Of a stretch of DNA of 64,000 bases, positions 16,771 through 61,800 are shown piece by piece. The stretch spans positions 31,538,024 through 31,602,023 of the forward strand of contig CAIIXF020000006.1 in NCBI GenBank assembly GCA_903813345.2, in the 5' to 3' direction. Within the stretch, counting starts at the first letter, position 1. Each line of letters opens with the position of its first letter. The translations under genes and the position numbers were made by a program. The DNA comes from Owenia fusiformis (taxonomy: Eukaryota > Annelida > Polychaeta > Sabellida > Oweniidae). A model generated the notes under the pieces. The model was not told the origin of the DNA. It did no database searches and worked only from the letters and a program-made list of their open reading frames with translations.

Positions 16771-16775
16771 GCACG

Positions 16776-18155: not shown

Positions 18156-18164
18156 GACTAACAG

Positions 18165-19865: not shown

Positions 19866-19879
19866 TGCATCTATAGTTA

Positions 19880-30500: not shown

Positions 30501-31148
30501 TCGTGGTACAGTATATTTTCATCCATATAAGATATCATCAGATATAAGAAAATCGAGCAATAGGAGAATATTTGTACAATTTAACCAGTTCAGACAGGTA
30601 TTGAAGTTTTTTAACCAAGAGTCAATTTAAAGCATTTTTCCAATCTTCATGCTTGAGTGATTTTGGATGATTTCTGGAGTTTGAGATATTTTTTCACCAA
30701 ACGGTCACTTGATTCTTACTCCCGAGTCAATTTAGAGCATTTTTCCAATCTTCACGCTTGAGTGATTTTGGATGATTTCTGGAGTTTGAGACATTTTTTC
30801 ACCAAACGAGCACTTGATTCTTACTCCTAAGTCATTTTAGAATATTTTTTAAAGTGTCACGTTTGGGCAATTTCAGTCACTGTTGATCGATTTCTGCTAA
30901 TTTTTGGAGTTTAAGGCATTTTCACAAAATAGACACCCACCCACTATACAAAATAACACGCTTTAATAGGCATCTGTTAATTTAACATGCCACTGATAAA
31001 AATATAAACCCCTACAAGATAAATAATAAAAAATGCTAACGTTAACAGTTTTACAGCAGAACATTTTCGACCAATCAAAGTGTATATGCAAATGAGCTGC
31101 AGAACCATTTCAATCAATCAGATCAGATTATTGCACTCTTTGACCCCA

Positions 31149-31180
<32 letters not shown>

Positions 31181-31199
31181 GCCGCCACCACCACCACCG

Positions 31200-31231
<32 letters not shown>

Positions 31232-33400: not shown

Positions 33401-33487
<87 letters not shown>

Positions 33488-36400
33488 GGCGGTGGTGGGG
33501 TCGAAGAGTGCAATAATCTGATCTGATTGATTGAAATGGTTCTGCAGCTCATTTGCATATACACTTTGATTGGTCGAAAATGTTCTGCTGTAAAACTGTT
33601 AACGTTAGCATTTTTTATTAGACTCCAGATGTCAATCTGGAGTCTATTGTTTTTGTCAGTATTCTTATTATTCTTTATTATTCTTTCTTATTATTCTTTC
33701 CCAGTTTTCTCGATAACCATAAGGCTTCCAATAAAGATCATTATTCAGTCAATTTATGTCCAGTATCTAGTTCCTCGGAAATTGGGTCAAATTTTTATCT
33801 AGGTCAAAGGTCAAGAACTAGGTCAAATCCAGTACTTTGTCACTTTTTTCGATTTTCTCGGTCGTCCTTCAATATTTTCAATCCGGTTTTTTTTCATTGT
33901 GTTCCTTATAAAAAACTAGGATATCTAGGGTCGATTTAGTTTTTTGATATCTCAAACCGATTTCGAGATATCAGTGTCCGAAAACGAGGTCCAAAAAAAA
34001 GTTCTCCGAATCAAATGTCCAGGATATTAGTCTTATAGGAAATTTTCTCAGGATTCCGAATCTGAAAACGAAATTTGGATCTGACTTCCGGTTCGGAAGT
34101 TATGGCGTTTTGAAAACTCAAAAATCGCTAAATTTGGTGCCCATGTTAAGTCAATGGGAAAAAATATTTTTTTGAAGTGAAAAATACGGAATATAGACTG
34201 AGTTCAGCTTCACATAATCAAAGCATTTAAAAGAAGGGGACCTCAAAAGCCATTTAACTTCACAATTTGGACACCGAAATGCCTAGGTCAAAATCTAGGT
34301 CAAATTCATAGGTTTTCCTTATTTTTTCGATTCTGACACTACACTTTAATTATATTCTTCGAAATTCTGTATACATGTAGCCAAGAATATGCTAATAGTG
34401 TTAGCCTTTTGCCGTCAGAAAGTATTTTGACCCACTTTTGAGATATGGTGTCCGAAAAGTAGGTCAAAATAAAAAGTTCTCCAAATTGAATATATGAGTT
34501 ATGAATTAAGGGTAGAATTCTGTCAGGATTTTGAATCTGCAAACCAAATTTCAATCTGACTTCCGGTTCGGAAGTAATGGCGTGTCCGAAAAGTAGGTCA
34601 AAATAAAAAATTTAACGTATGAGTTATGAATTAGGAGTAGAATTTTGTCAGGAATCCGAATCTGAAAACCAAATTTCGATCCGACTTCCGGTTCGGAAGT
34701 GATAGCGTTTTGAAATTTCGAGAAAAATCGATCTGATGGTATCCTGATAGAAAGTCAAGAGTAGAGAAGAAAATATTGAAAAATTCATCCATCCTTCCTA
34801 TCTCATCCTACCCTATCCTTCCTATCTATCCTTCCTTCCTATCTTTTCCTTCCTATCCTATCCTATCCTATCCTTTCTTCCTATTCTATTCTATCCTATC
34901 CTTCTTTCTTATTCTATCCTATCGTTCTTTCCTATTCTATCCTATCCTACCTTCCTATTTTATTTATCCATCTCTTTCTAGATGACTCAGCTTATTCTGG
35001 ATGACTCGGCTTATTCTGGATGACTCGGCTAAAAAAAAGTCTAGATCTGGAGTCTGAAATTGAACTTCGTTCAATTTCCAAAATCTAGTTATTTATCTTG
35101 TAGGGGTTTATATTTTTATCAGTGGCATGTTAAATTAACAGATGCCTATTAAAGCGTGTTATTTTGTATAGTGGGTGGGTGTCTATTTTGTGAAAATGCC
35201 TTAAACTCCAAAAATTAGCAGAAATCGATCAACAGTGACTGAAATCGTCCAAACTTGACACTTCAAAAAATACTTTAAAATGACCCAGGAGTAAGAATCA
35301 AGTGATCGTTTGGTAAAAGAATGCCTCAAACTCCAGGAATCACCAAAAATCACTCAAGCGTGAAAATTGTAAAATGTATCGGGAGTAAGAATACAGTGTC
35401 CATTTGGTGATTAAATACCTCAAACTCAAGAAATAAGCGAAAATCACTCAAGCGTGAAGATTGGAAAAATATTCTAAAATGACTCCAAAGTAAGAATCAA
35501 GTAATCGTTTGGAGAAAAAATTAGCACAAATTGATCAACTTGACAATTTAAAAATATTCTAAAATAACTCAGGAGGCTTTTTGGTTATAAATATTCAATA
35601 CCTGTCTGAACTTGTTAAATTGTGCAGAAATTCTCCTCTATTGGGAGATTTTCTTTTATCTGATTGGATGAGAATATACCGCAACCCGATTGGTTAAAAT
35701 TATTCTGAAACTCTAAACATAATTGGTTAAAATAATCCAAACATACTGTGCCCTGATTGGTTAAAATGATTCTGCAAGTCAAAACCTGATTGGTTAAAAA
35801 TTACTGTACTCTGATTGGTTAAAATAATTCTGCAAGCTAAAACCTGTTTGGTTGAAATGGTTCTGCAGTTATCTTTTTTACTATTTTATCAGATTGTTAT
35901 CAACCTTTGACCTATAACAATGAAACATCCATGAAGTAAACAAGATAACTTATCACATAGTCACCAGGTTACCTTAACAGTGATTGTTTGATTATCTTAT
36001 CAATTGAGCTCTCTCTTATCAATTATCAGTAACCTTTGACCAGTTATATCAGAAACCATGGTAGTTATCTTTTTCATTGTCTTATCAGTTTATTATCTCT
36101 CTCTTATCAATTATCAGAAACCTTTGACCAGTTATATCAGTAACCATGTGACCTATGACATCATTTCTGTGCATTCAACTCAAACCTATGTTCTTTTATC
36201 AATATAACCTTTGTCCAGTTATATCAGAAACCATGGTAGTTATCTTTTCACTGTCTTATCAGTTTATTATCTCTCTCTTATCAATTATCAGTAACCTTTG
36301 ACCATCTTTTTCAGTGTGTTATCAGTTTATTATCTCTCTCTTATCAGTAACCTTTGACCAGTTATATCAGTAACCATGTGACCTATGACGTCACTTCCAC

Positions 36401-39400
36401 TTCCGGTGCATCACCTTACCACGTGATCTATGACGTCACTTCCGGTGCACGTGACCTATGACGTCACGTCCGGTGGTAGTGGCAGGTGCAGGTGCAGGTT
36501 GCAGGTCGAAAGGCCCGCCGTATACTACTGTGGAAGCTGATGTCCTGAATCACTTTAAGACTAAGCTTGACAGACTATGGAGTGACCACCCAGCCAAATA
36601 CAACTATAGAGCCTTAAAGTAAACACAAGTCGATTAATTGGGGTCAATGCTAAACGATTATGCTCTTTTTATCTTAAGAACGGCCAAAGGTCAAGACGAC
36701 CTAAGCAGTGAAAACTATAACTATAACTACTATAACTATAACCCAATTTTCTGTTTGAATTATAATATTATATATGAAGTGAAAACCAATATTGCATATA
36801 CAGTGTATAATGGGAGATATGATATTATATTTCAGTGCCTATGCCCTATTTTCTCCTGTGATGGCTGGGAAATCACCACTACAGAGGGCCTAGGCAATCA
36901 GAAGACAGGATTTAATGTAATCCAGCAGAGTTTAGCAGACTTCAATGGAAGCCAATGTGGTTTTTGCAGTCCGGGGATGGTTATGAGCATGAAAGGGTAA
37001 GTAAAATATATTTAGTTTGTTGTTTACCCGGAACTCATGAAACTAACTTTACATAATGAAGCAAGAAAACATTTTGATCCCTTATGTTAGGGAATAGGAG
37101 TGTAAGGGATTAAGAGACTGTTTTATCTCCAAAACTGAACGATAGTGATACTCTTAGGCTACTATGTGCAAGATTTTAGTGAATTTGGTTCATCAGTTGC
37201 TGAAAAAATACTTATCTAAAAGTGTCTCATTTTTTGGAACACCTGATATATTTGAATGAAGATACTGACCTTTACTGTGTTATTTTGCAGGTTATTTTCA
37301 AATAACAAGAAACCCACTGCTGACCAGGTGGAGAGGGCTCTAGATGGCAACATCTGTAGATGCACAGGTAAAGTGCAGAATGTATTGATATGTCTCATTA
37401 TAGGGCACTTTATCAGCTCTTAGGGCTGTTCCACAACATTACAAAATTATCTGCAATTCATTGCTAATTGATATGAAACAACACTGAATCTGAATTACTA
37501 TGATATTTATAGGGTTCTGTCCCATACATGTATATTGCATTAGGGAATTACTGAATCTGAATTACTATGATATTTATAGGGTTCTGTCCCATACATGTAT
37601 ATTGCAATGGGGAATCACTGAATCTGAATTACTATGATATTTATAGGGTTCTGTCCCATACATGTATATTGCATTAGGGAATTACTGAATCTGAATTACT
37701 ATGATATTTATAGGGTTCTGTCCCATACATGTATATTGCATTAGGGAATTACTGAATCTGAATTACTATGCTATTTATAGGGTTCTGTCCCATACATGTA
37801 TATTGCAATAGGGAATTACTGAATCTGAATTACTATGATGTTCATAGGGTTCTGTCCCATACATGTATATTGCAATGGGGAATTACTGAATATGAACCAG
37901 AACAACGGCAACGCCAAAGCGTAGCGAATCCCATCGAACAGAAATGGCTGGCATTTTTACAAACGAAGCGCAAATATCATAAAACAACACACCAGAAAAA
38001 AGGCCACCATTTTCAAAATGGTTGCTCACTAGCCAAGTTGTCATCAGAAGAAATAATATGCTTTTAAGTAGCCATCTCTAAAATTTTTGAAAAATCGCAC
38101 ACATACTTGTAAAATAGCACACATAAAAATGGTGGCCATTTTTCAAAATGGCCGACTACTCCCCAAAGTTTTATTAGACAATGTGCCATGCTTAAAGTAT
38201 TCACATATCAAATATGAACAAAATCGCTCCACTACTTTTCGAGTAATAGTAAAAAACATTAAAATGGCGGCCATTTTACAAAATGGCCACCTTCTACCAA
38301 AAGCGTCATTAGAAATAGACAGTGTGCCATCGGATGCTTATAGTATTCACATACCAAATATGAACAAAATCACTCCACTACTTTTCGAATTATAGTGAAA
38401 TACGTTAAAATGGCGGCCATTTTTCAAAATTGTTTTCAAAATGGCCACCTTCTACCAAAAGTGTCATAGGACAGTGTGCCATGCTTAAAGTATTCACATA
38501 CTAAAAATGAACAAAATCGCTCCACTACTTTTCGAGTTATAGTAAAATATGTTAAAATGGAGGCCATTTTTCAAATTTATTTCAAAATGGCCACCTTCTA
38601 CCAAAAGTGTCATAGGACAGTGTGCCATGCTTATATTATTCACATACCAAATATGAACAAAATCGCTCCACTACTTTTCGAGTTATTGTAAAATACATTA
38701 AAATGGCGGCCATTTTGAAAAATGGCCGCCTTCTACCAAAAGTGTCTTTAGACAGTGTGCAATGCTTTTAGTATTCACATACCAAATATGAACAAAATCG
38801 CTCCACTATTTTTTGAGTTACAGCAAAAATCGTAAAATGACGAGTAAAGGCCGCCATTTTTCAAGATGGCTGCCATGTGCTTCTTTAATATCTACATTTG
38901 TAGTATTATTAATGTCCTTTATAATTTTTTTACATTTAAAACATATTGCTATTGCAGTTTTACATATTGCACCTAAATTACTGAAAAATCGTCACTAAAA
39001 TGGCCGCCATTTTGAAATGAGCGGCCATTTTGAAAATCGGCTTTCGAGCAGAACTTCTACCCCCATAGGGTATATGTGTACAAAATATGAACAAAATCGG
39101 GCCAACGGTATTTGAGTTATTGCCCGGACGGACAGACGTACGTACGGAAGGACGGACGGACGGAGGCGTTCCCTATATCCCTCCGAACTTAGTTCGATGG
39201 GATAATTACTCTGATTGTCTAGGGTTCTGTCCCTTACATGTATATTGCAATGGGGAATTACTGAATATGAATTACTATGATTTTCTAGGGTTCTGTCCCA
39301 TACATGTATATTGCAGTGGGGAATTACTAAATATGAATTACTATGATTTTCTAGGGTTCTGTCCCATACATATATATTGCAATAGGGAATTACTGAATAT

Positions 39401-42400
39401 GAATTTCTATGATTTTCTAGGGTTCTGTCCCATACATGTATATTGCAGTGGGGAATCACTGAATCTGAATTACTATGATATTTATAGGGTTCTGTCCCTT
39501 ACATGTATATTGCAGTGGGAAATTACTGAATATGAATTTATATGATATTGATAGGGTTCTGTCCCATACATGTATATTGCAGTGGGGAATTACTGAATAT
39601 GAATTACTATGACATTTATAGGGTTCTGTCCCATACATGTATATTCCAGTGGGGAATTACTGAATCTGAATTACTATGATATTTATAGGGTTCTGTCCCA
39701 TACATGTATATTGCAGTGGGGAATTACTGAATATGAATTACTATGATATTTATAGGGTTCTGTCCCATACATGTACATTGCAGTGGTGAATTACTGAATA
39801 TGAATTACTATGACATTTATAGGGTTCTGTCCCATACATGTATATTGCAGTGGGGAATTACTGAATATGAATTACGATTATATTTATAGGGTTCTGTCCC
39901 ATACATGTTTATTGCAGTGGGGAATTACTGAATATGAATTACTATGATATTTATAGGGCTCTGTCCCATACATGTATATTGCATTAGGCAATTACTGAAT
40001 CTGAATTACTATGATTTTCTAGGGTTCTGTCCCATACATGTATATTGCAGTGGGAACTTACTGAATCTGAATTACTATGATATTTATACATTCCGTCTCA
40101 TACATGTATATTGCAGTGGAGAATTACTGAATCTGAATTACTATGATATTTATACTGTTCTGTACCATACATGTACATTGCAGTGGGAATTACTGAATCT
40201 GAATTACTATGATATTTACAGGGTTCTGTCCCTTACATGTATATTGCAATAGGGAATTACTGAATCTGAATTACTATGATGTTCATAGGGTTCTGTCCCA
40301 TACATGTATATTGCAATGGGGAATTACTGAATTTGAATTACTATGATATTATAGGGTTCTGTCCCATACATGTATATTGCAATAGGGAATTACTGAATTT
40401 GAATTACTATGATATTATAGGGTTCTGTCCCATACATGTATATTGCAATAGGGAATTACTGAATCTGAATTACTATGATATTTACAGGGTTCTGTCCCTT
40501 ACATGTATATTGCAGTGGGGAATTACTGAATATGAATTACTATGATATTTACAGGGTTCTGTCTTTTACATGTATATTGCAGTGGGGAATTACTGAATAT
40601 GAATTACTATGATATTTATACTGTTCTGTCCCTTACATGTATATTGCAATAGGGAATTACTGAATCTGAATTACTATGATATTTACAGGGTTCTGTCCCA
40701 TACATGTATATTGCAATAGGGAATTACTGAATTTGATTTACTATGATATTTACAGGGTTCTGTCCCATACATGTATATTACAGTGGGGAATTACTGAATA
40801 TGAATTACTATGATATTTACAGGGTTCTGTCCCTTACATGTATTTTGCAGTGGGGAATTACTGAATATGAATTATGTACTATGATATTTATAGGGTTCTG
40901 TCCCATACATGTATATTGCAGTGGGGAATTACTGAATATGAATTACTATGATATTTATACTGTTCTGTCCCTTACATGTATATTGCAGTGGGGAATTACT
41001 GAATATGAATTACTATGATATTTATAGGGTTTCGTCCCATACTTGATGCAATGAAAAGTGTGGCAATGAAAGTAGCAGACCTTGAGGTAGGACAATTGTC
41101 ATTGTTTTCTTATGGGAATGCTTTGAAGACATTATTTTAAAATACTATTTTGAGTCTGGTTTTATTAAAAGGGGACCTTAATTTTCAAAGGGGAAGGCAG
41201 ATTAAATAAGTATTTGTTATTTTTTTAGGCTTAATGTATTTCAAAACATATGAGATATTTACCCAGAATGTTCAAGACCACTGAGAAGTAGTTTTTATGA
41301 AATTAACAGAAGACATATTTCGAAGATAAATGTAAAGCATCCCAGTATTGTTTCCACCAGGAAATTGTGACATACATGTAGTGGTGTCACCTCCAATGTT
41401 ATAGTCAGTTGCAATATGTGTTCAGCAATTGTTGCAGCAAACTTGGTAATCTTCTGTTTGACTTGAGCTTTCTGTGAGGACATAACAAAAAAAAGTTATT
41501 ATGTTATCAAGAATTTAGAATTTGAATTGTGTACCCTAACTTTATCTTTTGAGGAATATGATGTGCAATTTGTTTCAATTCCCTTCCATGTAAGTGAAAC
41601 ATGTATGCAATGCTGTACATATATGTACGTACACCTTGTAGGACATAGCGAAATGTAGTGGATCAACCAGTTGTAAGCAGAGCTGTTCAGCAAAAAGAGA
41701 GTTTCAGAAAAAGGTGGAGCCTGTGCATATGGTTTTCACTTCCAGCCAGTGGTACAGGCCAACCTCAATTGATCAGCTCTATGATGTCATGAAGGCAAAT
41801 AGAGACAAACTCATCAAGCTTGTTGTTGGGAACACTGCACAAGGTAAAAACCTGTTGTCAGGGGCAAGTTGGAAATAATCTTATCAGAATTAGTAAAGAA
41901 CCTAATAACATTTGGAAGGCATGAACGTATTTTCTAAAATGGTAAAGGGCAGGCAGTAACCATGAATGTAAATGAATGTATAAATAACTTTGTAGATATT
42001 TATTCATGATGACTGTTTTGTATGCAGGTGTATATGGGGATGGTGCAATAGATGTATATATTGATACAAAGTCAGTACCAGAGCTCTACCACATAAAGGT
42101 ATGTACCAACACATTCTCACCATATAGATCTAATGCATCAAGGATATGTACCAACACATTCTCACCATTTAGATCTAATGCATCAAGGATATGTACCAAC
42201 ACATTCTCACCATAAAGATATAATGCATCAAGGATATGTACCAACACATTCTCACCATTTAGATCTAATGCATCAATGATATGTACCAACACATTCTCAC
42301 CATTTAGATCTAATGCATCAAGGATATGTACCAACACATTCTCACCATAAAGATCTAATGCATCAAGGATATGTACCAACACATTCTCACCATTTAGATC

Positions 42401-45400
42401 TAATGCATCAAGGATATGTACCAACACATTCTCACCATTTAGATCTAATGCATCAAGGATATGTACCAACACATTCTCACCATTTAGATCTAATGCATCA
42501 AGGATATGTACCAACACATTCTCACCATTTAGATCTAATGCATCAAGGATATGCACCAACACATTCTCACCATTTAGATCTAATGCATCAAGGATATGCA
42601 CCAACACATTCTCACCATTTAGATCTAATGCATCAAGGATATGCACCAACACATTCTCACCATATAGATCTAATGCATCAAGGATATGTACCAACACATT
42701 CTCACCATAAAGATCTAATGTATCAAGGATATGTACCAACACATTCTCACCATATAGATCTAATGCATCAAGGATATGTACCAACACATTCTCATCATTT
42801 AGATCTAATGTATCAAGGATATGTACCAACACATTCTCACCATTTAGATCTAATGCATCAAGGATATGTACCAACACATTCTCACCATATAGATCTAATG
42901 TATCAAGGATATGTACCAACACATTCTCACCATTTAGATCTAATGCATCAAGGATATGTACCAACACATTCTCACCATATAGATCTTATGCATCAAGGAT
43001 ATGTACCAACACATTCTCACTATTTAGATCTAATGTATCAAGGATATGTACCAACACATTCTCACCATTTAGATCTAATGCATCAATGATATGTAACAAC
43101 ACATTCTCACCATTTAGATCTAATGTATCAAGGATATGTACCAACACATTCTCACCATTTAGATCTAATGCATCAAGGATATGTACCAACACATTCTCAC
43201 CATAAAGATCTAATGCATCAAGGATATGTACCAACACATTCTCACCATAAAGATCTAATGCATCAAGGATATGTACCAACACATTCTCACCATTTAGATC
43301 TAATGCATCAAGGATATGTTCCAACACATTCTCACCATATAGATCTAATGCATCAAGGATATGTACCAACACATTCTCACCATATAGATCTAATGCATCA
43401 AGGATATGTACCAACACATTCTCACCATTTAGATCTAATTTATCAAGGATATGTACCAACACATTCTCACCATAAAGATCTAATGCATCAAGGATATGTA
43501 CCAACACATTCTCACCATAAAGATCTAATGTATCAAGGATATGTACCAACACATTCTCACCATTTAGATCTAATGTATCAAGGATATGTACCAACACATT
43601 CTCACCATTTAGATCCAATGCATCAATGATATGTACCAACACATTCTCACCATTTAGATCTAATGTATCAAGGATATGTACCAACACATTCTCACCATTT
43701 AGATCTAATGCATCAAGGATATGTACCAACACATTCTCACCATAAAGATCTAATGCATCAAGGATATGTACCAACACATTCTCACCATAAAGATCTAATG
43801 TATCAAGGATATGTACCAACACATTCTCACTATTTAGATCTAATGTATCAAGGATATGTACCAACACATTCTCACCATTTAGATCTAATGTATCAAGGAT
43901 ATGTACCAACACATTCTCACCATTTAGATCTAATTTATCAAGGATATGTACTAACACATTCTCACCATAAAGATCTAATGCATCAAGGATATGTACCAAC
44001 ACATTCTCACCATAAAGATCTAATGTATCAAGGATATGTACCAACACATTCTCACTATTTAGATCTAATGTATCAAGGATATGTACCAACACATTCTCAC
44101 CATTTAGATCCAATGCATCAATGATATGTACCAACACATTCTCACCATTTAGATCTAATGTATCAAGGATATGTACCAACACATTCTCACCATTTAGATC
44201 TAATGCATCAAGGATATGTACCAACACATTCTCACCATTTAGATCTAATGCATCAAGGATATGTACCAACACATTCTCACCATAAAGATCTAATGTATCA
44301 AGGATATGTACCAACACATTCTCACTATTTAGATCTAATGTATCAAGGATATGTACCAACACATTCTCACCATTTAGATTTAATGCATCAAGGATATGTA
44401 CCAACACATTCTCACCATTTAGATCTAATGCATCAAGGATATGTACCAACACATTCTCGCCATTTAGATCTAATGCATCAATGATATGTACCAACACATT
44501 CTCACCATTTAGATCTAATGCATCAAGGATATGTACCAACACATTCTCACCATAAAGATCTAATGCATCAAGGATATGTACCAACACATTCTCACCTGAA
44601 GATCTAATGCATCAAGGATATGTACCAACACATTCTCACCATTTAGATCTAATGTATCAAGGATATGTACCAACACATTCTCACCATTTAGATCTAATGC
44701 ATCAAGGATATGTACCAACACATTCTCACCATATAGATCTAATGCATCAATGATATGTACCAACACATTCTCACCATTTAGATCTAATGCATCAAGGATA
44801 TGTACCAACACATTCTCATCTGAAGATCTAATGCATCAAGGATATGTACCAACACATTCTTACCATTTAGATCTAATTTATCAAGGATATGTACCAACAC
44901 ATTCTCACCATTTAGATCTAATGCATCAAGGATATGTACCAACACATTCTCACCATATAGATCTAATGCATCAAGGATATGTACCAACACATTCTCACCA
45001 TTTAGATCTAATGCATCAAGGATATGCACCAACACATTCTCACCATTTAGATCTTATGCATCAAGGATATGCACCAACACATTCTCACCATTTAGATCTA
45101 ATGCATCAAGGATATGCACCAACACATTCTCACCATATAGATCTAATGCATCAAGGATATGTACCAACACATTCTCACCATTTAGATCTAATGTATCAAG
45201 GATATGTACCAACACATTCTCACCATTTAGATCTAATGCATCAAGGATATGTACCAACACATTCTCACCATTTAGATCTAATGCATCAATGATATGTACC
45301 AACACATTCTCACCATTTAGATCTAATGTATCAAGGATATGTACCAACACATTCTCACCATTTAGATCTAATGCATCAAGGATATGTACCAACACATTCT

Positions 45401-48400
45401 CACCATATAGATCTAATGCATCAAGGATATGTACCAACACATTCTCACCATTTAGATCTAATGCATCAAGGATATGTACCAACACATTCTCACCATTTAG
45501 ATCTAATGCATCAATGATATGTACCAACACATTCTCACTATTTAGATCTAATGTATCAAGGATATGTACCAACACATTCTCACCATTTAGATCTAATGTA
45601 TCAAGGATATGTACCAACACATTCTCACCATTTAGATCTAATGCATCAAGGATATGTACCAACACATTCTCACCATAAAGATCTAATGTATCAAGGATAT
45701 GTACCAACACATTCTCACTATTTAGATCTAATGTATCAAGGATATGTACCAACACATTCATACCATATAGATCTAATGCATCAAGGATATGCACCAACAC
45801 ATTCTCACCATTTAGATCTAATGTATCAAGGATATGTACCAACACATTCTCACCATTTAGATCTAATGTATCAAGGATATGTACCAACACATTCTCACCT
45901 GAAGATCTAATGCATCAAGGATATGTACCAACACATTATCACTATTTAGATCTAATGTATCAAGGATATGTACCAACACATTCTCACCATATAGATCTAA
46001 TGCATCAAGGATATGCACCAACACATTCTCACCATTTAGATCTAATGTATCAAGGATATGTACCAACACATTCTCACCATTTAGATCTAATGTATCAAGG
46101 ATATGTACCAACACATTCTCACCATTTAGATCTAATGTATCAAGGATATGTACCAACACATTCTCACTATTTAGATCTAATGTATCAAGGATATGTACCA
46201 ACACATTCTCACCTGAAGATCTAATGCATCAAGGATATGTACCAACACATTCTCACCATTTAGATCTAATGCATCAAGGATATGTACCAACACATTCTCA
46301 CCATTTAGATCTAATGTATCAAGGATATGCACCAACACATTCTCACCATAAAGATCTAATGTATCAAGGATATGTACCAACACATTCTCACTATTTAGAT
46401 CTAATGTATCAAGGATATGTACCAACACATTCTCACCATTTAGATCTAATGTATCAAGGATATGTACCAACACATTCTCACTATTTAGATCTAATGCATC
46501 AAGGATATGTACCAACACATTCTCACCATAAAGATCTAATGCATCAATGATATATACCAAAACATTCTCACCATTTAGATCTAATGCATCAAGGATATGT
46601 ACCAACACATTCTCACCATAAAGATCTAATGCATCAAGGATATGTACCAACACATTCTCACCATTTAGATCTAATGCATCAATGATATGTACCAACACAT
46701 TCTCACCATTTAGATCTAATGCATCAAGGATATGTACCAACACATTCTCACCATATAGATCTAATGCATCAAGGATATGTACCAACACATTCTCACCATT
46801 TAGATCTAATGTATCAAGGATATGTACCAACACATTCTCACCATTTAGATCTAATGCATCAAGGATATGTACCAACACATTCTCACCATTTAGATATAAT
46901 GCATCAATAATATGTACCTACACATTCTCACCATTTAGATCTAATGCATCAAGGATATGTACCAACACATTCTCACCATAAAGATCTAATGCATCAAGGA
47001 TATGTACCAACACATTCTCACCATAAAGATCTAATGCATCAAGGATATGCACCAACACATTCTCACCATTTAGATCTAATGTATCAAGGATATGTACCAA
47101 CACATTCTCACCATTTAGATCTAATGTATCAAGGATATGTACCAACACATTCTCACCTGAAGATCTAATGCATCAAGGATATGTACCAACACATTCTCAC
47201 TATTTAGATCTAATATATCAAGGATATGTACCAACACATTCTCACCATATAGATCTAATGCATCAAGGATATGCACCAACACATTCTCACCATTTAGATC
47301 TAATGTATCAAGGATATGTACCAACACATTCTCACCATTTAGATCTAATGTATCAAGGATATGTACCAACACATTCTCACCATTTAGATCTAATGTATCA
47401 AGGATATGTACCAACACATTCTCACTATTTAGATCTAATGTATCAAGGATATGTACCAACACATTCTCACCTGAAGATCTAATGCATCAAGGATATGTAC
47501 CAACACATTCTCACCATTTAGATCTAATGCATCAAGGATATGTACCAACACATTCTCACCATTTAGATCTAATGTATCAAGGATATGTACCAACACATTC
47601 TCACCTGAAGATCTAATGCATCAAGGATATGTACCAACACATTCTCACTATTTAGATCTAATGCATCAAGGATATGTACCAACACATTCTCACCATTTAG
47701 ATCTAATGTATCAAGGATATGCACCAACACATTCTCACCATAAAGATCTAATGTATCAAGGATATGTACCAACACATTCTCACTATTTAGATCTAATGTA
47801 TCAAGGATATGTACCAACACATTCTCACCATTTAGATCTAATGTATCAAGGATATGTACCAACACATTCTCACTATTTAGATCTAATGCATCAAGGATAT
47901 GTACCAACACATTCTCACCATAAAGATCTAATGCATCAATGATATATACCAACACATTCTCACCATTTAGATCTAATGCATCAAGGATATGTACCAACAC
48001 ATTCTCACCATAAAGATCTAATGCATCAAGGATATGTACCAACACATTCTCACCATTTAGATCTAATGCATCAATGATATGTACCAACACATTCTCACCA
48101 TTTAGATCTAATGCATCAAGGATATGTACCAACACATTCTCACCATATAGATCTAATGCATCAAGGATATGTACCAACACATTCTCACCATTTAGATCTA
48201 ATGTATCAAGGATATGTACCAACACATTCTCACCATTTAGATCTAATGCATCAAGGATATGTACCAACACATTCTCACCATTTAGATATAATGCATCAAT
48301 GATATGTACCTACACATTCTCACCATTTAGATCTAATGCATCAAGGATATGTACCAACACATTCTCACCATAAAGATCTAATGCATCAAGGATATGTACC

Positions 48401-49851
48401 AACACATTCTCACCATAAAGATCTAATGCATCAATGATATGTACCAACACATTCTCACCATTTAGATTTTCTGTCCTAAAATCTTGTCTGTAATGTCATT
48501 TCTACATGTTTTTTGGTGAATCGTTTAACCATTGCTATTATATGTCCCCTCCTCTTTTCCCCCTTCTCTCCCCTTTCCTCCCCTCTCCCCTTCCCTTCCC
48601 CTCTCTACTTCTTGCTGAATATACAATGAAGCGTTTTCTACACACATTCTATGACATATTAAAAAATACTTTCAGTATGATCCAGAGTTTACCATTGCGA
48701 GTAATGTGACATTGTCTCGGTTGATTAGTGTGTTGACAGAACAGGGCAAGAGGGATGGCTACACCTACTGTACAACACTGGCTGATCATGTACAGAAAGT
48801 TGCTTCTACTCCAGTAAGAAATGTAAGTACCGTGGTAGTTGACCCCAAATCAATTTGCAACACGTTTTGAAACAAAGTTCAAATAGATTGAAATTGTTTT
48901 AAAAACTTTTTCACACTTTTTCTACATACTTCCTTCTACATTTCAACTAGCTAATATATGCACCTACTAGGGACATGGGCTGTTGGCGGGAAATGAATTT
49001 TCTCTGTCAAGGTCAGATGTCTAAATCTAGATGAAATCTAATTTTTCGAGACAAGTTTTCTTTACATCAAAAAATGGTAAAAATAACTTGTTTCAACTTG
49101 CTTCAGTTTGACCAATTTTTTTTTTAATTTACAAGTTCTCAGGAGTTCAAATCTGACCTTACATTTGAGATTAGACCTTTACTTGACTTTCAGTGATCTT
49201 CAAAAGGTCAAAAAAGTTGATTTTTCAAATTGATTTTTTGGATTCAAATTTAGGTCAGCTTAATCACAAAAGACCTTGAGAAGCTTGAGAAGGTTAAATT
49301 GTCGAGGTCAAGGTCATTAAAATAGGTCACAAACTGGGCTACTAAGTTTCTCATATTTTTGGTTGAAAGTCAGAATATACAATCCTCTAAAAGTTCTACA
49401 CATAAACGCAATTGAGAATCTATAAAATTTTGCACCGGTTTTGAGGAGTAGAGCTCAAAAACTAAAAAAGGTCAAATTTCGAAAAATATTTTGAGCATTT
49501 TAAAAAAAATCATCTACAAGTTCTCAGGAGTTCAAATATGACCTTAGATTTGAGATTTGACCTTCAAAAGGAATTTTCTAGATTAAATTTTCAGGGAAGT
49601 TTCTCATGAATAAAGTCTATGACACGTTTTGTGATCGAAAATTGTTTTAATGTAACTTAGTAACTGAGTAACTAACTCTACCTAACTAATTCATGTAATT
49701 GAAACAAAAAGAATTTTTTGTGTATAAAGTTAATCCTTTTCAAACAATGTGGTTGCAATTCATTGTGTGAGCACAGTGCCGTGGTTCCTTTATTATCCCA
49801 ACGAACGAAGTTCGTTAGGGATATAGTGAAGCCCTCCGTCCGTCCGTCTGT

Positions 49852-49883
<32 letters not shown>

Positions 49884-52800
49884 CAGTCAGTCAGTCAGTC
49901 AGTCCGTCCGTCTGTTCGGAAGATAACTCAAATACTAGTTGACAGATTTTCTTCATATTTAGTGGAAAGATGTATATTGGTAAATAGTTTTACGCAAAAA
50001 AATTTTTTTTCAAGATGGCCGCCGCTTTAAAACTGACGGGACTTTTTCGCAAAAATCATAAATTTTTCATTCTAAACCAAAGTAATTAATATTATTGTTT
50101 GAAATTTTGGTAGTGTATTTACAACATTTATCTTTTTCACATATATTCCGTGTTTTTCATCCTGACCCCCAGGGGCCATGTATGGGGGGACAGGAAAACA
50201 GAAATTTTCGCTAATTTTTAGATCTCTCTGAAGTATAGCTTTATTATACTCAAATGAAAGGCAATTAAGAGTAGATTGCAAATATTGTATCTTTTTTCTG
50301 ATTCGAGCCTCATAAAATTCAAAATGGCCGTCTAGTTTACGATTTCGCAATAATTTTTCGATCGCTTCAAAGTATGGCTATAGTATATTATACTCAAATT
50401 GAAGGAATTTTGGAGTAGATCACAATTATGGTATTATTTTTCAGATTTGTACCTCAGAAAATTCAAAATGGCTGCTTTGCAGGAATTCGCAATTCTAAAA
50501 TCTAATTTTTTCATTTTCAACCAAAGTAATGAGTATAATTGATTGGAATTCGGTAATTGATATTTTGTTCGTTGGGATTTGCTACTCCGCGGAGTTGCCA
50601 TTATCTAGTTTTGATAATTCTGGCAGGATTATATTACAGTACATGTTTACATCCATGAATAAAGCCATTCTTTTTTGTACATTTGAAAATCATTGAATCG
50701 CAGGCACAGGAACAGAAAAATTGAATTGTTCTCAATGAAAATACATCCCCGGCCCCACACATTGTGTGGTACACAGATGGAAATCAAGTTTTCCTATATG
50801 TTATTTTCCCACAAAGACTTTTTTGACCTATGGTAAAGTTATCTCAGACTGGTAGTGGTACATTCTCTGTAACAAAGTCTTGAACTAATTTTCTACACAC
50901 AAAAAAGCGCATATATCAAAAATATAAATATTCTGCACCTTATTCTAAAAGTTCCAACATGTTTAATACGAAAAACTTTACTTTGTGAAATGACTATCAT
51001 GATAAATGATGATCATTATTAACTAGAATATACATGTACAATATATTGTAATAAAAATGTACATACAGTATGTATGTATATGTAAGGTGTATATTAATGA
51101 TGTTTCTTTTTGACATTAGATGGCATCATGGTCGGGAAATTTAATGCTAAAGAAACAACATCCAAGTTTTATATCAGACATCTATGTGATTCTAGAGACT
51201 GTTGGTGCTACACTTAGTATAGGTGGGTAGTGTCAATTTCAATGTAAAAGTAAGACATCAGATTGTTGTTTACATGCACTTGGAACAACAAATGATATAA
51301 CAACTTAAACCAAGTTATACTATACCCTGCATGCATAGTCTAGTTAAACTACACTCTGCCTAGTAGAGACCATATTACAGTTTAGTAGCCCCGCCCCAAC
51401 GACGGGTAACGGTGACAGTTTGGGTAATAAATCACTTTTGACCTACGCGCTGACCTTTCTTCTACCAATCAGCGAGCTTGAAGAAACATACGCCAAATAT
51501 GTTCTATGCGCATGTCATTGGTCAATTGCGGGCTCAACGATGACGTCAGAAGGAATGACCATATATAGAACGTCGGTCAAATATGGCCGACGAACACTGA
51601 TTGGCGCGGTGAGTTCACAGGTTTATTTTAGTTTGAAAGAGTGAAGACGAAGCTCTCTTTTAAGAAGTGAAGTCAAACGAATGCAAAGGGTAGTTATACT
51701 AATAATCAGCTCAAATTGTTAGAAAGCTGTAAGGCAACTGAGCATGAGTAGGGTTATTATTAATCATTTTGAATGGTCCTGCATTGTCTTAATCACATTA
51801 TAATGATTTGGGGATTTTTAAAAAAAGATATAGTATAGTAGGAACAAGGGGTTCCCATGCACCCATAAGGTGTGAATAAGTTACATACATTTTTGTAATC
51901 CCTAGGGTGTCTATTTAATGAATTCATTTGTTAACATTGCCAACTAATGTCCCATAGTACTTTTATGGCGGCATTCAGTTACCATGGTTACGCGTCTTTA
52001 GATATCTCACCTTGGTATTTTAAATCATTTGTAGCTCTGTCATTATTTGGTCTATAGAAATGATATTGGTACCAAATTGAACCTCGTTAAATTTCCAATA
52101 AATTTCTGATATTCAATTATGCAAATTATCTAATTTGCATAAATTATGACGTCATCAATCTATTTTGGGTTCAGAATTTCCAACTATAGCAAAGAATCTA
52201 TTAGAACTGAGGCCGTATGGCAAAATTTCTGAAAGGTTTTGTCCTTTATTCTATTAGTAGAAGGTATAAGCAACATAAAAGTGAAAACAGATTCAAAATT
52301 GAATCAGTATTACGAAAGTTATGTAAATTTCGAGGCAGCTATCGTGAATGTCATTATTTGACAATAATATACATACGTCTTACCTTGGAGTCTTGAATCA
52401 ATGTAGCTTCGCCATTATTTGGTCTATAGAGATGATATTGGTATCTGATTAAACCTTATTAAATTTACTATATGTTTACAATATTCAGTTATGCAAATTA
52501 GCTAATTTGCATTAATTGTGACGTCATCAATCCATTTTTTGTTCAGAATATCGTAGTATAGCAACATATCTATTAGAACTGAGGCCGTATGACAGCCCCC
52601 ATATTTGAAGATTTTGGTGAAACCTGGCAAAATACATTAATTATTAGGTTCCAGAAGCTCCCAGAAGCTATATGATGGCCCCCAGTGGCCCCAAGAATCT
52701 ATACAGGGGCCCCAAGTGGCCCCCAGAAGCTATACTGTGCTCCCCAGAGGCTATATGTTGACCCCCAGAAGCTGAATAGTGGCCCCCAGGAGCTATACGG

Positions 52801-55800
52801 TGGCTCCCAGAAGCTATACAGGAAACCCTGTGGCCCCCAGGAGCTATACGGTGGTGCCCAGAAGCTATACAGGGGCCCCCAGTGGCCCCAAAAAGCTATA
52901 CGGTGGCCCCCAGAAGCTACACGGGGGCCCCCAGAAGCTATACTATGGCCCCCAGAAGCTATACAAGGCCCCTTGAAACTATACTATGGTCTCCAGAAGC
53001 TATATGGTGGCCCCCAATGGCCCTTGGAAGCTATATGATGGCCTCCAGAAGCTAATTAGTGGCCCCCAGGAGCTATATGGTGGCTCCCAGAAGCTATACA
53101 GGGGACCCCAGTGGCCCCAAGAAGCTAAACGATGGCCCCCAGAAGCTATACAGGAGCCCCAAAAAGCTACACGATGGCCCCCAATGGCTCCCAGAAGATG
53201 TGAAGGGCCCCCAGTAGCCCCTAGAAGCTATACTGTGGCCCCCAGTGGCCCTCATAGGCTATATGATGGCCCCTAGAAGCTAAGTAGTGACCCTCAGGAG
53301 CTACATGGTGGTTCCCAGAAGCTACACAATGGCCCCCAGAATCTATATGGTGGCCCCCAATGGCTCCCAGAAGCTATAAAGGGCCCCCCAGTAGCCCCTA
53401 GAAGCTCTACGGTGTCCCTCAGTGGCCCCGAAAGCTATATAGTGGCCCCCAGAAGCTATACAGGGGCCCACAGTGGCTCCCAAAAGTTATACGATGGGCC
53501 CCAGAAGCTATGCAAGGGCCTGCAGAAACTGTACTGTAGCCCCCAGAAGCTATACAGGGGCCCCCAGTGGCTCCCAGAAGCTATAAGATGGCCCCCAGAA
53601 GCTATGCAAGGGCCCGCAGAAACTATACGGTAGCCCCCATAAGCTATACGATGGCCTCCAGAAGCTATAGTGTCCCCCAATGGGCCACCATATAGCTTTG
53701 GGGGCCACCGTATAGCTTCTAGGGGCTACTGGGGGCCCTGTATAGCTTCTGGGAGCCATTTGGGGCCATCATATAGATTCTGGGGGCCATCGTGTAGCTT
53801 CTTTGGGCTGCTGTATAGCTTCTGGGGGCCATCGTATAGCTTCTTGGGGCCACTGGGGTTCCCTGAATAGCTTCTGGGTGCCACCATATAGCTCCTGGGG
53901 GCCACTAATTAGCTTCTGGGGGCCATCATATAGCTTCTGAGGGCCACTGGGGGCCACCATATAGCTTCTGGAGACCACAGTATAGTTTCTGTGGGCCCTT
54001 GTATAGCTTCTGGAGGCCATCGGATACCTTCTGGGGGCCACTTGGGGCCCCTGTATAGATTCTTGGGGCCACTGGGGGCCATCATATAGCTTCTGGGGGC
54101 TTCTGGAACCTAATAATTAATGTATTTTGCCAGGTTTCACCCAAATCTTCAAATATGGGGGCTGTCAGGAGGGGGTTAAATTAAGTTATAATTTTTTTTA
54201 AACGAATTCATGTGACTATTTATCTCTAAAGCAAAGGGAGAAAACCTTCTTTTAACTCATTAAAAACGTGAAATGTAAAAACCTCATTATCAAGTGATGT
54301 TACCATAGCATCTGAAATGTTAGAAATATTACATAAACCATATGATGAATCATCTTCACTTCTAATCATGCTTTATACTTCAAGAATTAAGAATATGAAG
54401 AATATGATGAAAATCAGACTATATGTATACTATTCATATGAATCATTGAAAGTGCATGGTAAATTATAAAATTGGATCTTTAATATACAGGGTCGAGATA
54501 ACCGTTTTGACCCCTGTGAATGATAGTCAAAATACATGTAACCTTTCCACATACTTATTAGTTCAGTTCAATACATGCACATTTTTACTCAATAAGATTG
54601 AAACAACTATGGTTGTTACTTTTTTTGTTAATTTAATATTCTTTTTTTAATTGTCCAACAATGACGTTCACAGTAGCTGCCTCCAAAGCTGGATAATTTT
54701 GTTAATTCTGATCCAATTTTGAAGATTTGTCTTCTCTTTAATGTTGCTTATATCTTCCACTCGTCAAATAAGGGACAAAACTATGCACACATTCTATCAT
54801 ACGGCCTCAGTTCTAATAGATATGTTGCTATACTACGATACTCTGAACCAAAAATGGATTGATGACGTCACAATTAATGCAAATTAGCTAATTTGCATAA
54901 CTGAATATTGTAAACATATAGTAAATTTAATAAGGTTTAATCAGATACCAATATCATCTCTATAGACCAAATAATGGCGAAGCTACATTGATTCAAGACT
55001 CCAAGGTAAGATGTATGTATATTATTGTCAAATAATGACATTCACGATAGCTGCCTCGAAATTTACATAACTTTCGTAATACTGATTCAATTTTGAATCT
55101 GTTTTCACTTTTATGTTGCTTATACCTTCTACTAATAGAATAAAGGACAAAACCTTTCAGAAATTTTGCCATACGGCCTCAGTTCTAATAGATTCTTTGC
55201 TATAGTTGGAAATTCTGAACCCAAAATAGATTGATGACGTCATAATTTATGCAAATTAGATAATTTGCATAATTGAATATCAGAAATTTATTGGAAATTT
55301 AACGAGGTTCAATTTGGTACCAATATCATTTCTATAGACCAAATAATGACAGAGCTACAAATGATTTAAAATACCAAGGTGAGATATCTAAAGACGCGTA
55401 ACCATGGTAACTGAATGCTGCCATAAAAGTACTATGGGACATTAGTTGGCAATGTTAACAAATGAATTCATTAAATAGACACCCTAGGGATTACAAAAAT
55501 GTATGTAACTTATTCACACCTTATGGGTGCATGGGAACCCCTTGTTCCTACTATACTAATATAGTCATGGCAATGGATTCTGTCATGAGTCACAATCACT
55601 ATTTATTTAAATTGATACACTCTATTTCGTATTCCAATTTTGATTTTATGTCTAATTGGTATGATGTTGCAGTTGATGTTGAAACAAAGGTTGCAGCAGA
55701 GACAAATCTATCAGATTTTCTCAAGTTGAACATGCAATCGAAGATGATCGCCTCAGTGAAGCTACCCAAGATGTCTGAAGACAACAATCAACATGTTCTG

Positions 55801-58800
55801 ACATACAAGATCATGCCAAGGGCAGAGGTATGTATTGAAGCCCAGAGATGTATCATTGTAGTGTTTTCATACTACTTACATACCCCAATTGACCATTTGC
55901 CAAGGGCAGAGGTATGTATTGAAGCCCAGAGAAGTATCATTGTAGTGTTTTCATACTACTTACATACCCCAATTGACCATTTGCCAAGGGCAGAGGTATG
56001 TATTGAAGCCCAGAGATGTATCATTGTAGTGTTTTCATACTACTTACATACCCCAATTGACCATTTGCCAAGGGCAGAGGTATGTATTGAAGCCCAGAGA
56101 TGTATCATTGTCATGTTTTCATACTACTTACATACCCCATTTGCCAAGGGCAGAGGTATGTATTGAAGCCCAGAGATGTATCATTGTAGTGTTTCCATAC
56201 TACTTACATACCCCAATTGACCATTTGCCAAGGGCAGAGGTATGTATTGAAGCCCAGAGAAGTATCATTGTAGTGTTTTCATACTACTTACATACCCCAA
56301 TTGACCATTTGCCAAGGGCAGAGGTATGTATTGAAGCCCAGAGATGTATCATTGTAGTGTTTTCATACTACTTACATACCCCAATTGACCATTTGCCAAG
56401 GGCAGAGGTATGTATTGAAGCCCAGAGATGTATCATTGTAGTGTTTTCATACTATTTACATACCCCAATTGACCATTTGCCAAGGGCAGAGGTATGTATT
56501 GAAGCCCAGAGATGTATCATTGTAGTGTTTTCATACTACTTACATACCCCAATTGACCATTTGCCAAGGGCAGAGGTATGTATTGAAGCCCAGAGAAGTA
56601 TCATTGTAGTGTTTTCATACTACTTACATACCCCAATTGACCATTTGCCAAGGGCAGAGGTATGTATTGAAGCCCAGAGATGTATCATTGTAGTGTTTTC
56701 ATACTACTTACATACCCCAATTGACCATTTGCCAAGGGCAGAGGTATGTATTGAAACCCAGAGATGTATCATTGTAGTGTTTTCATACTACTTACATACC
56801 CCAATTGACCATTTGCCAAGGGCAGAGGTATGTATTGAAGCCCAGAGATGTATCATTGTAGTGTTTTCATACTACTTACATACCCCAATTGACCATTTGC
56901 CAAGGGCAGAGGTATGTATTGAAGCCCAGAGATGTATCATTGTAGTGTTTTCATACTACTTACATACCCCAATTGACCATTTGCCAAGGGCAGAGGTATG
57001 TATTGAAGCCCAGAGATGTATCATTGTAGTGTTTTCATACTACTTACATACCCCAATTGACCATTTGCCAAGGGCAGAGGTATGTATTGAAACCCAGAGA
57101 TGTATCATTGTAGTGTTTTCATACTACTTACATACCCCAATTGACCATTTGCCAAGGGCAGAGGTATGTATTGAAACCCAGAGATGTATCATTGTAGTGT
57201 TTTCATACTACTTACATACCCCAATTGACCATTTGCCAAGGGCAGAGGTATGTATTGAAACCCAGAGATGTATCATTGTAGTGTTTTCATACTACTTACA
57301 TACCCCAATTGACCATTTGCCAAGGGCAGAGGTATGTATTGAAACCCAGAGATGTATCATTGTAGTGTTTTCATACTACTTACATACCCCAATTGACCAT
57401 TTGCCAAGGGCAGAGGTATGTATTGAAACCCAGAGATGTATCATTGTAGTGTTTTCATACTACTTACATACCCCAATTGACCATTTGCCAAGGGCAGAGG
57501 TATGTATTGAAACCCAGAGATGTATCATTGTAGTGTTTTCATACTACTTACATACCCCAATTGACCATTTGCCAAGGGCAGAGGTATGTATTGAAACCCA
57601 GAGATGTATCATTGTAGTGTTTTCATACTACTTACATACCCCAATTGACCATTTGCCAAGGGCAGAGGTATGTATTGAAACCCAGAGATGTATCATTGTA
57701 GTGTTTTCATACTACTTACATACCCCAATTGACCATTTGCCAAGGGCAGAGGTATGTATTGAAGCCCAGAGATGTATCATTGTAGTGTTTTCATACTACT
57801 TACATACCCCAATTGACCATTTGCCAAGGGCAGAGGTATGTATTGAAGCCCAGAGATGTATCATTGTAGTGTTTTCATACTACTTACATACCCCAATTGA
57901 CCATTTGCCAAGGGCAGAGGTATGTATTGAAACCCAGAGATGTATCATTGTAGTGTTTTCATACTACTTACATACCCCAATTGACCATTTGCCAAGGGCA
58001 GAGGTATGTATTGAAACCCAGAGATGTATCATTGTAGTGTTTTCATACTACTTACATACCCCAATTGACCATTTGCCAAGGGCAGAGGTATGTATTGAAA
58101 CCCAGAGATGTATCATTGTAGTGTTTTCATACTACTTACATACCCCAATTGACCATTTGCCAAGGGCAGAGGTATGTATTGAAACCCAGAGATGTATCAT
58201 TGTAGTGTTTTCATACTACTTACATACCCCAATTGACCATTTGCCAAGGGCAGAGGTATGTATTGAAACCCAGAGATGTATCATTGTAGTGTTTTCATAC
58301 TACTTACATACCCCAATTGACCATTTGCCAAGGGCAGAGGTATGTATTGAAACCCAGAGATGTATCATTGTAGTGTTTTCATACTACTTACATACCCCAA
58401 TTGACCATTTGCCAAGGGCAGAGGTATGTATTGAAACCCAGAGATGTATCATTGTAGTGTTTTCATACTACTTACATACCCCAATTGACCATTTGCCAAG
58501 GGCAGAGGTATGTATTGAAACCCAGAGATGTATCATTGTAGTGTTTTCATACTACTTACATACCCCAATTGACCATTTGCCAAGGGCAGAGGTATGTATT
58601 GAAACCCAGAGATGTATCATTGTAGTGTTTTCATACTACTTACATACCCCAATTGACCATTTGCCAAGGGCAGAGGTATGTATTGAAACCCAGAGATGTA
58701 TCATTGTAGTGTTTTCATACTACTTACATACCCCAATTGACCATTTGCCAAGGGCAGAGGTATTTATTGAAACCCAGAGATGTATCATTGTAGTGTTTTC

Positions 58801-61800
58801 ATACTACTTACATACCCCAATTGACCATTTGCCAAGGGCAGAGGTATGTATTGAAACCCAGAGATGTATCATTGTAGTGTTTTCATACTACTTACATACC
58901 CCAATTGACCATTTGCCAAGGGCAGAGGTATGTATTGAAACCCAGAGATGTATCATTGTAGTGTTTTCATACTACTTACATACCCCAATTGACCATTTGC
59001 CAAGGGCAGAGGTATGTATTGAAACCCAGAGATGTATCATTGTAGTGTTTTCATACTACTTACATACCCCAATTGACATTTGCTATATAGATGGGTAAAT
59101 ACTTGTAGATGGCAGCATGTGTTGTTGGGGCTACATATTAGTATTTACAAAATGGAAAAACTAACAATATTTTGAATAATTCAAAATGGAATAATGTAAA
59201 ACTCAAATGGCATACAATTTGATGATCTTGTTGACATTTAAATTGTGATTAAACCTAAAAGTGTAACCCTTAAAAGAATGAATCAACTTTTAACATTGTG
59301 TCAATGGGGATTTAGCCCAACCTTTTTCAGAAAAGTTAAAAATTGAATGAAATAAAATAACTATGTAAAATTATGTAAAGTGCACAGAATTCAAATATGT
59401 CATCAAATAGAAGTAAATGTCCTTAGTGGTTATTCAAAAATGTTAAAATCTTGTTAAAAATGAGTACCAAATGGTTACTTAGACAGTGCACAGACTAGGA
59501 TCGTATTCTATTTCATTGTCTATTCCATGTTCTTGTAGAATGCTCATGCGTATGTGAATGCTGGATTCAGGATGGAAATACATCCAAACCATCTAAATTA
59601 TTTGGTTGTGAATAAACCCTCCATAGTCTATGGGGGAATATCACCTGGCTTTGTAAGTATATAAGTTTCTGCTTAAAGTGACAATGTAATACAGAACTGT
59701 TTTTAATGGCGAACAAAAAATGTTCAGTAAAAACAAAGTGGCTATGTAGCTCAGTACATCCTGGCCTGGATCAGTTTATTCATTGTAACTTCATTTTTGG
59801 TATTATCATTTAGGTTCTCATGTTTAATCCATTAAGACCTTAAAACACCTAAAAAAATAACATTTTAGAGGTCAAAGGCCAAGGTCATTAACTTAGGTCA
59901 TCTAAAAGAACCTCTCTTGGATTGCTGTGATTATTTCATGTTTTGTATTTATGTCACCAACACAAGTGATGACTTGTTATAGTCTCCAACTTTTTTGTGG
60001 ATGACGTTTGGCATTCAGCAGTTGGCATCTGTAACAAATGGCAGGTTGTGGCATTTTGCATGTTAATGCCTTGTTATATTGTAAGGTTACACTGATATCA
60101 TGTAATTATGACATATTCTCTTTATGCTGTTCTTTGCTTTTGCTTTGATCAGGTACATGCATCTAAGACGGAGGAATACCTGACTGGTAAATGTCTTGGA
60201 GATGTCAAAGTTTTGCAAGGTATGTCCATGGAAATTGTTCAGTTCCCTCATTGTTAAAGGTTTATCTTTGGGTTTTAAGCTTAAATCTAACAAATTTCCA
60301 TCATTAACTGCATGATACAAAATCTATTAAAATTTAAATTTAGTCAGATGTTACCTCAATAGAATAATAATAGTTATCATTGTGGGTTTTAATATGCCAC
60401 TTTGAATGTAAGGAGAAATTAATACAATTTGGGATTAGTCATTATGATTGAGACCATTTGATGTTTTTCAAAAGTCTTGCTATCATAACAAATCAGTGTT
60501 AATTTGAAAATAATTTAAGCAATTTTGTAAGAAATATGTGAAATTTTGTGAAAAGGTTAATGTTTCAAATATGAGTGTTCACTGTAACTCAAAGAAGAAG
60601 GTGTTCAGATTCATGTTTTTTAACATGGGTCAATGGGAGGAAAAATGGGACTTGAAAAAAGTGTTTGGATTGGAAGTTGTTCAGATTAGCAGGTGTTCGG
60701 ATATACAGGTTTCACCGTACGTGAACTCTATGTGTCCATCTCCTTTTTAATCATAATATATATTGATATATTAGGTAGGTTAGGCTACATGTTTTCAAGA
60801 GAACCACATAATGTTTTGATCCCAGGGACTTCTGTCCTGCTCTCAATCAACTTTTTCAGGGACCAAATTACAATTATTTCCATATACCTTGAGACTCAAT
60901 CAACCAAGTAAATAGTACAAGTTGGAGAACTTATCCACAGAGGACCATAATTCTACATGATCACTTGAAAGTTCTTTAAAAAATGTGTATCTTAACCTCA
61001 CTATTAACTAACGTTCCACTACAGGTGCCTTACATGTGCTAGCCAGTGAAGTAGTACCTAATGAAGACCCAGTGCTATCCAGCCCACAGTACAGAAAGAA
61101 TCTAGCCCTCTCTCTTCTTTACAAGGTACCATATTATCATGTAATTAATATGTTATATTTTGCAGAGTTAATGTTTGCCTGCCAGAGCAGTTAAACATTT
61201 CAAGAAAATAAACATTAAAGTTTACATTTTATATAGCAGAGAGATTTCACTTCTGACCTAGCCTAAGGTTATTTAAGTTATATAATTTTAAGATTAATTA
61301 TAATTATTGGTTACATAATAGACTTGTCTGATGGAAACATAATTTTTAGAAAAAGTATGTCTCTCAATTATATTTAGACAATGATTGTAAGTAATTTAAA
61401 AGTATATGTTACAACAGTGAGTCTTATTCTTATTGACTGTGTTGGTTGCATCTAGTACAACTCGCCGAGCATGTCTATTTTTGATTCATATTTTAAATAT
61501 TTTTCATTCTGTATTATATTTTCAGTTTGTGCTAAACATTTGTCAGGAAACAGTCTCAGCAAGATTCAAATCAGGGGCAGATTGCATTCAGCGCCCCCTT
61601 TCTAGTGGCAAACAGAGTTATGATACACACAAAAAACAATGGCCCCTCTCTGAACCCATACCCAAACTTAAGTCCAAACTCCAGGTCAGTATAGTCTCAT
61701 TTATGTGTGTGGTCTGTTGAGACATACATGTAAGGAAATCCAAACAATTTATAAAAACAGGACTGAAGTCTGGCATTTGATTTGTTGAGATAAAATAAAA

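Follow-up and report, generated by a model that had tools for sequence, protein, structure and literature searches.

The window analysed here is a stretch of 64,000 nucleotides from the annelid Owenia fusiformis (C6:31538024-31602023 of a 498-Mb assembly in 525 contigs). It carries the first 16 exons of a homologue of aldehyde oxidase/xanthine dehydrogenase, in which several minisatellites are built from copies of the exon edge that they abut, splice site included in most cases. An earlier sequence-only reading of the window had rightly recognised three independent arrays of this type in one gene; we found five in the whole gene and three more in a paralogue 6 Mb distant (C6:25148001-25175000). 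The eight arrays, at three donors and five acceptors, have units of 21-84 bp in about 7 to 142 copies. With the exon-attached splice sites, the gene reads as an open frame of 31 exons, and at each of the eight positions the corresponding junction in the other paralogue is free of arrays. We consider it likely that the arrays are by-products of tandem duplications over exon edges which expanded into the introns, while the copy attached to the exon continued to be spliced.

Arrays and splice sites in the window

The arrays were delimited with Tandem Repeats Finder (TRF), which confirmed the coordinates and unit lengths proposed earlier for the 67-, 45- and 84-bp arrays. For the junction scores, the 40 bp surrounding each junction were aligned automatically, in local mode, to 250 bp of the intronic flank, and 300 single-base shuffles of P450 and myosin loci gave a 99.9th percentile of 24. 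The arrays and their exons are as follows, in window positions; in motifs, a slash marks the exon boundary.

37483..37896, + strand: left block of the 67-bp array (TRF); units carry TATAG/GGTTCTGTCCC, resembling the acceptor of exon E6
37897..39203, no strand: insertion splitting the 67-bp array, with ends ATCCCATCGAAC and GTTCGATGGGAT and its own 146-bp repeats (direct sequence reading and TRF)
39204..41042, + strand: right block of the 67-bp array, ending inside exon E6 (TRF)
41028..41086, + strand: exon E6; its acceptor is the right end of the 67-bp array; junction score 55
42028..42098, + strand: exon E8; the 45-bp array begins at its donor; junction score 44
42092..48467, + strand: 45-bp array, about 142 copies, starting at the E8 donor (TRF)
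55673..55827, + strand: exon E11; the 84-bp array begins at its donor; junction score 68
55814..59083, + strand: 84-bp array, 39 copies, starting at the E11 donor (TRF)

The splice sites concerned are the acceptor before 41028 and the donors after 42098 and 55827. These exons had been called 5, 7 and 10, numbers that are one too low because of a first exon at 16508. The similarity between unit and junction is clearly beyond chance, with scores of 55, 44 and 68 against 24 in the shuffles, a comparison that the sequence-only reading had itself proposed. A scan of 28 window junctions gave the same picture: 31, 126 and 38 junction-spanning copies at the 67-, 45- and 84-bp arrays, respectively, and, among the other 25 junctions, 24 with zero copies and one with a single weak match.

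The three arrays differ in what became of the copied splice sites, which we call decoys. In the 67-bp array the final copy is the start of exon E6 itself (TATAG/GGTTTCGTCCCATAC) and AG is retained in 29 of the 33 copies listed for both blocks together. All 39 copies of the 84-bp array have GT at the donor position and 38 of them the full GCAGAG/GTATGT; the 13 bases of exon origin are invariant across the 37 full-length units compared, six unit types follow each other in mixed order, and the frame of E11 stays open until shifted by a 76-bp unit. The 45-bp array, which holds many unit variants, has CATAAAG/GTATGT in the exon copy only: the 124 others of 125 exactly anchored copies are without GT there, mostly through one extra A, and a copy whose donor was already dead was probably the source of the expansion. 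The proposal that each repeat unit includes the splice signal thus holds for the 84-bp array and for most of the 67-bp array, and fails for the 45-bp array.

The host gene has as its best match among solved structures the aldehyde oxidase 7px0 (E 3.9e-109). Its window part comprises exons E1-E16 (16508..62171, + strand), and the 3' part of the model was built from 100 kb of genome sequence on either side of the window. The 31-exon model encodes 1285 amino acids without a stop, all its 30 introns are GT-AG, and a terminal exon lies further on. The spliced model matches the annotated protein P0121 at 100% identity over 569 amino acids. The gene model of P0121 is truncated and reads into intron 16, with 15 more exons and the terminal exon downstream (C6:31602024 to about 31648500). 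The remaining exons upstream of E6, and one large array of intron 3 that touches no exon, are:

16508-16542, + strand: exon E1 (spliced model)
21449-21588, + strand: exon E2 (spliced model)
22060-22229, + strand: exon E3 (spliced model)
23103..28479, + strand: 129-bp array, 43 copies, intron 3; nearest junction 874 bp away (TRF)
36836-36996, + strand: exon E4 (spliced model)
37291-37367, + strand: exon E5 (spliced model)

Several other elements are present in the region. The insertion at 37897-39203 inside the 67-bp array and a second element at 49790-50580 resemble each other at their ends, marked by ATCCCATCGAAC and ATCCCAACGAAC and the corresponding reverse complements, and both contain CCGT-type repeats. 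A large imperfect inverted-repeat field at 52663-54100 consists of CCCCAGAAGCTATAC units and is fold-back-like. Intron 3 contains, on the minus strand at 31857-33329, an open reading frame (ORF) of 490 amino acids adjoined by simple-repeat ORFs; its matches to an Adeno_IVa2-like ATPase and a zinc finger are weak, both under the Pfam cut-off, and it resembles part of a Polinton-type element. ORF pieces at 28609-29731 resemble, to judge from a motif, the end of a non-LTR (long terminal repeat) reverse transcriptase; the single piece tested had no Pfam match. Finally, the 3' exons of a ferritin gene lie at about 7520-8527 (best match P0001, 97% identical).

Further arrays in the gene, its paralogue and other families

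Beyond the window, the junction test was positive at two further places in the gene, making 5 of 61 junctions in all. The E22 donor adjoins an array with a 61-bp unit, including about 37 bp of exon, and the TRF end of this array is 93 bp from the junction; GT is present in 25 of its 28 copies, a count that probably takes in the exon copy. The E26 acceptor adjoins an array with a 32-bp unit, in which AG is found in 12 of 15 recognised copies. The paralogue gave 3 positives among 59 tested junctions (a list that missed a few exons; the counterpart of E22 was tested separately). All three are acceptors, with units of 23, 23 and 21 bp, and AG is kept in 12 of 24 copies of a 23-bp array and in 20 of 20 copies of the 21-bp array. 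Over the eight junctions, scores range from 37 to 75.

Comparison of the two paralogues provides the relative age of the arrays. The intron positions at the array junctions are common to both genes, yet the counterpart of each of the eight, in the other gene of the pair, scores under the threshold, which indicates that the arrays arose after the introns. Moreover, the exon-derived part of the units encodes residues present in both paralogues; together with the array-free counterparts, this points to exon sequence copied into a pre-existing intron. The opposite history, in which older arrays captured an exon boundary that moved into them, is possible in principle, as array units contain splice-like motifs, but the same shared residues and array-free counterparts make it hardly credible.

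The terminal exon of the gene presents a related case, a 50-bp array of 31 copies whose unit combines the final coding bases with the stop-codon region:

C6:31648481-31648630 and C6:31654280-31655678: 50-bp terminal-exon array, 3 + 28 copies, in blocks about 5.6 kb apart

Since the exon edge concerned has no splice site, founding is not restricted to splice sites.

Two unrelated families were surveyed through 40 exons drawn from 106 P450 matches and 20 exons drawn from 92 myosin-head matches, with flanks of 150-250 bp. The automated test was positive at none of 69 P450 junctions and at one of 35 myosin junctions, the acceptor L090, where about 100 bp, including about 54 bp of exon, are duplicated x2. 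By eye, the myosin donors L088 (17 bp x2.2) and L076 (33 bp x3.9) are weak-looking; they failed the automated test and were not counted. L090 and, by eye, L088 are possible early stages of edge arrays. Edge arrays are therefore not limited to the two paralogues, and they are much rarer in the P450 and myosin families sampled. At two P450 exons, L037 and L050, arrays with 50- and 49-bp units end about 7 and 11 bp short of the exon, the splice site not being clearly included.

Origin of the arrays and rival explanations

Tandem duplication followed by expansion on the intron side accounts for all eight arrays. Each array would have started when a short stretch lying across the exon edge was duplicated in tandem; besides the splice site and some neighbouring intron sequence, this stretch would have contained about 7 to 37 bp of exon. 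The intron-side copies would then multiply by slippage or unequal exchange and, since they are removed with the intron, would be nearly neutral, while the exon-attached copy, which would be the splice site in use, would be kept by selection for an intact protein and correct splicing. We infer this route, the neutrality of the copies and the disuse of the decoys from several observations. The state of the decoys varies freely (GT in 39 of 39 in the 84-bp array, lost in 124 of 125 in the 45-bp array), as expected if the copies are unselected. The exon-attached sites are those used in the annotated proteins P0121 and P0123 at six of the eight array junctions, three per protein, and the genome annotation drew on RNA-seq splice junctions (PMC9977687), which supports, without proving, that the decoys are ignored. 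Hairpins, considered as founders of the arrays, were rejected: the best inverted repeats of the units do not surpass those of shuffled versions, the fraction of shuffles at least as good being 0.96 (45 bp), 0.905 (67 bp), 0.295 (61 bp), 0.795 (32 bp), 1.0 (129 bp) and 0.05 (84 bp).

Three points weigh against this account. The truncation of P0121 leaves splicing at E22 and E26 based on homology only. No decoy-spliced isoform, carrying one repeat, was found in protein collections, a weak search in which no close transcript of the gene appeared either. Finally, unbiased random founding predicts fewer edge arrays than the two genes show.

This last point was quantified by counting arrays under a single rule (TRF period of at least 15, at least 5 copies, split arrays merged) against an expectation of uniform founding, both being our assumptions; the probabilities rest on this list, and smaller values obtained from a hand-picked list were not relied on. 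In the main gene, 5 of 13 arrays contain a junction for 0.61 expected (P 1.5e-4), and in the paralogue 3 of 4 for 1.18 expected (P 0.010). When the three arrays of the sequence-only reading are left out, the two genes pooled still have 5 of 14 for 1.63 expected (P 0.002), and the main gene alone has just 2 of 10 (P 0.07). With strict TRF ends at most 30 bp from a junction, the counts are 6 of 13 (P 2e-5), or 3 of 10 without those three (P 0.012). Repeat coverage behaves otherwise. Among random positions of the main gene, 957 of 3000 have at least 3 local junction-type copies (321 of 2352 outside its main arrays), for 5 of 61 junctions. In the 40-bp test, 7 to 12 of 61 points situated 30-300 bp into the introns were positive when one-sided, against the same 5 of 61 junctions, and 7 to 13 of 61 when two-sided; the two-sided test was also positive at 1404 of 3840 random intronic points and at 148 of 2493 outside TRF arrays. 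The idea that junctions are hotspots of tandem-repeat coverage was therefore rejected, coverage being no higher there than at intronic points. Large arrays dominate coverage, and founder counts are in our view the fairer measure. By array count, and with these caveats, the edge position exceeds chance, and a bias is plausible in these genes rather than demonstrated genome-wide.

Such a bias would mean that tandem duplications are actively seeded at exon edges, for example by transcription- or chromatin-linked breaks, so that the arrays are favored at birth and not just tolerated. We regard this as a serious possibility without favoring it: the founder counts, the strict TRF ends near junctions and the two P450 arrays ending close to an exon speak for it, whereas coverage is not raised at junctions, P450 and myosin junctions are almost all negative, the main gene alone falls to 2 of 10, and the two genes tested are related, one of them having been picked for its arrays. 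The process that seeds duplications at exon edges, which the sequence-only reading had proposed, thus obtains moderate support from the array count, none from coverage and little from the P450 and myosin families. In a broader version, which we advance only tentatively, exon edges would be true birth sites of minisatellites in some animal genomes, with mutational founding far above that of other genic sites, in annelids and, independently, in cephalochordates; the resulting fields of decoys would have to be ignored by the spliceosome through a preference for the exon-attached copy. Plain chance likewise seems to us possible without being favored. The genes of Owenia are rich in minisatellites (46 arrays in 264 kb), some of which are bound to land on exon edges, and neither the coverage controls nor the P450 and myosin surveys reveal a general excess; the founder-placement probabilities, including those calculated without the first three arrays, argue against it.

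Functional copies, by which decoys would regulate splicing or provide variable in-frame insertions (28 amino acids per 84-bp unit), are very improbable. Units of 84 and 45 bp are multiples of three and initially open in the exon frame, and GT persists in every donor of the 84-bp array. Predicted accessibility in this array is 0.027 for the exon donor against a mean of 0.0019 for the decoys, a difference that may reflect the ability of later donors to pair with TACATACC on one flank or the other. Nevertheless, units of 67, 61, 32 and 23 bp are not multiples of three, the isoform search, though weak, was empty, and the 45-bp decoys lost the donor that the 84-bp decoys retain, so that the earlier suggestion of selection using the copies received no support. 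An assembly artefact is the least credible explanation: repetitive sequence is difficult for assemblers and the precise number of copies could be in error, but the assembly combined PacBio reads with an N50 of at least 25 kb, an optical map and Hi-C (PMC9977687), and the 84-bp array mixes six unit types while the 45-bp array has many variants.

Amphioxus mirages and significance of the Owenia arrays

The sequence-only reading knew of no described class of this type, yet the mirages of amphioxus share the anatomy. These are repeats of minisatellite type in which an exon-intron boundary is copied in tandem, found in Adh3 and the globin genes BflGb6 and BflGb9 (PMC3087553), to which PGBD5 and troponin C were added (PMC3902484). 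Canestro 2002 is cited there as the first mirage paper, and mirages are described at either exon end, with AG/GT kept in many, not all, copies and splicing reported as regular (PMC3087553, PMC3902484). Length instability between alleles and somatic instability are listed among their traits, instability being reported for Adh3, and the two haplotypes of BflGb6 are reported to have 6 and 3 repeat units (PMC3087553, PMC3902484). The Owenia arrays are of the same kind, in a distant phylum, and unusually dense here. They are likewise minisatellite-like, their units span a donor or an acceptor boundary, and most keep AG/GT in many copies, the 45-bp array with its broken decoy donors being the departure. 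Unlike the mirages, they belong to an annelid and not to a chordate, five are gathered in one gene with three in its paralogue, they reach about 142 copies against the 6 and 3 of BflGb6, and they are known here from one haploid assembly.

No mirage-like case outside amphioxus was found in the open-licence literature searched, which is weak evidence since subscription papers were mostly beyond its reach. Intron gain by duplication of AG/GT proto-splice sites, as far as the consulted text of PMC2891723 and PMC4974935 goes, also involves tandem duplication of splice motifs; in Owenia, by contrast, the paralogue already has introns at these positions, and no newly gained intron was observed. Earthworm metallothionein genes also provide intronic minisatellites in annelids, but the text consulted does not describe units containing splice sites (PMC12783039).

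These arrays constitute natural competition tests of splice-site choice. Downstream of the E11 donor lie 38 more donors, of which 37 are identical over GCAGAG/GTATGT, and the E6 acceptor is preceded by 33 near-copies, 29 with AG. A first-come rule predicts the use of an upstream acceptor, whereas the annotation of the protein places the splice at the last acceptor, which would fit exon definition or proximity. Arrays of splice sites may also mislead gene models. Finally, eight annelid cases beside those of amphioxus suggest that mirages are not a chordate oddity and are more widespread.

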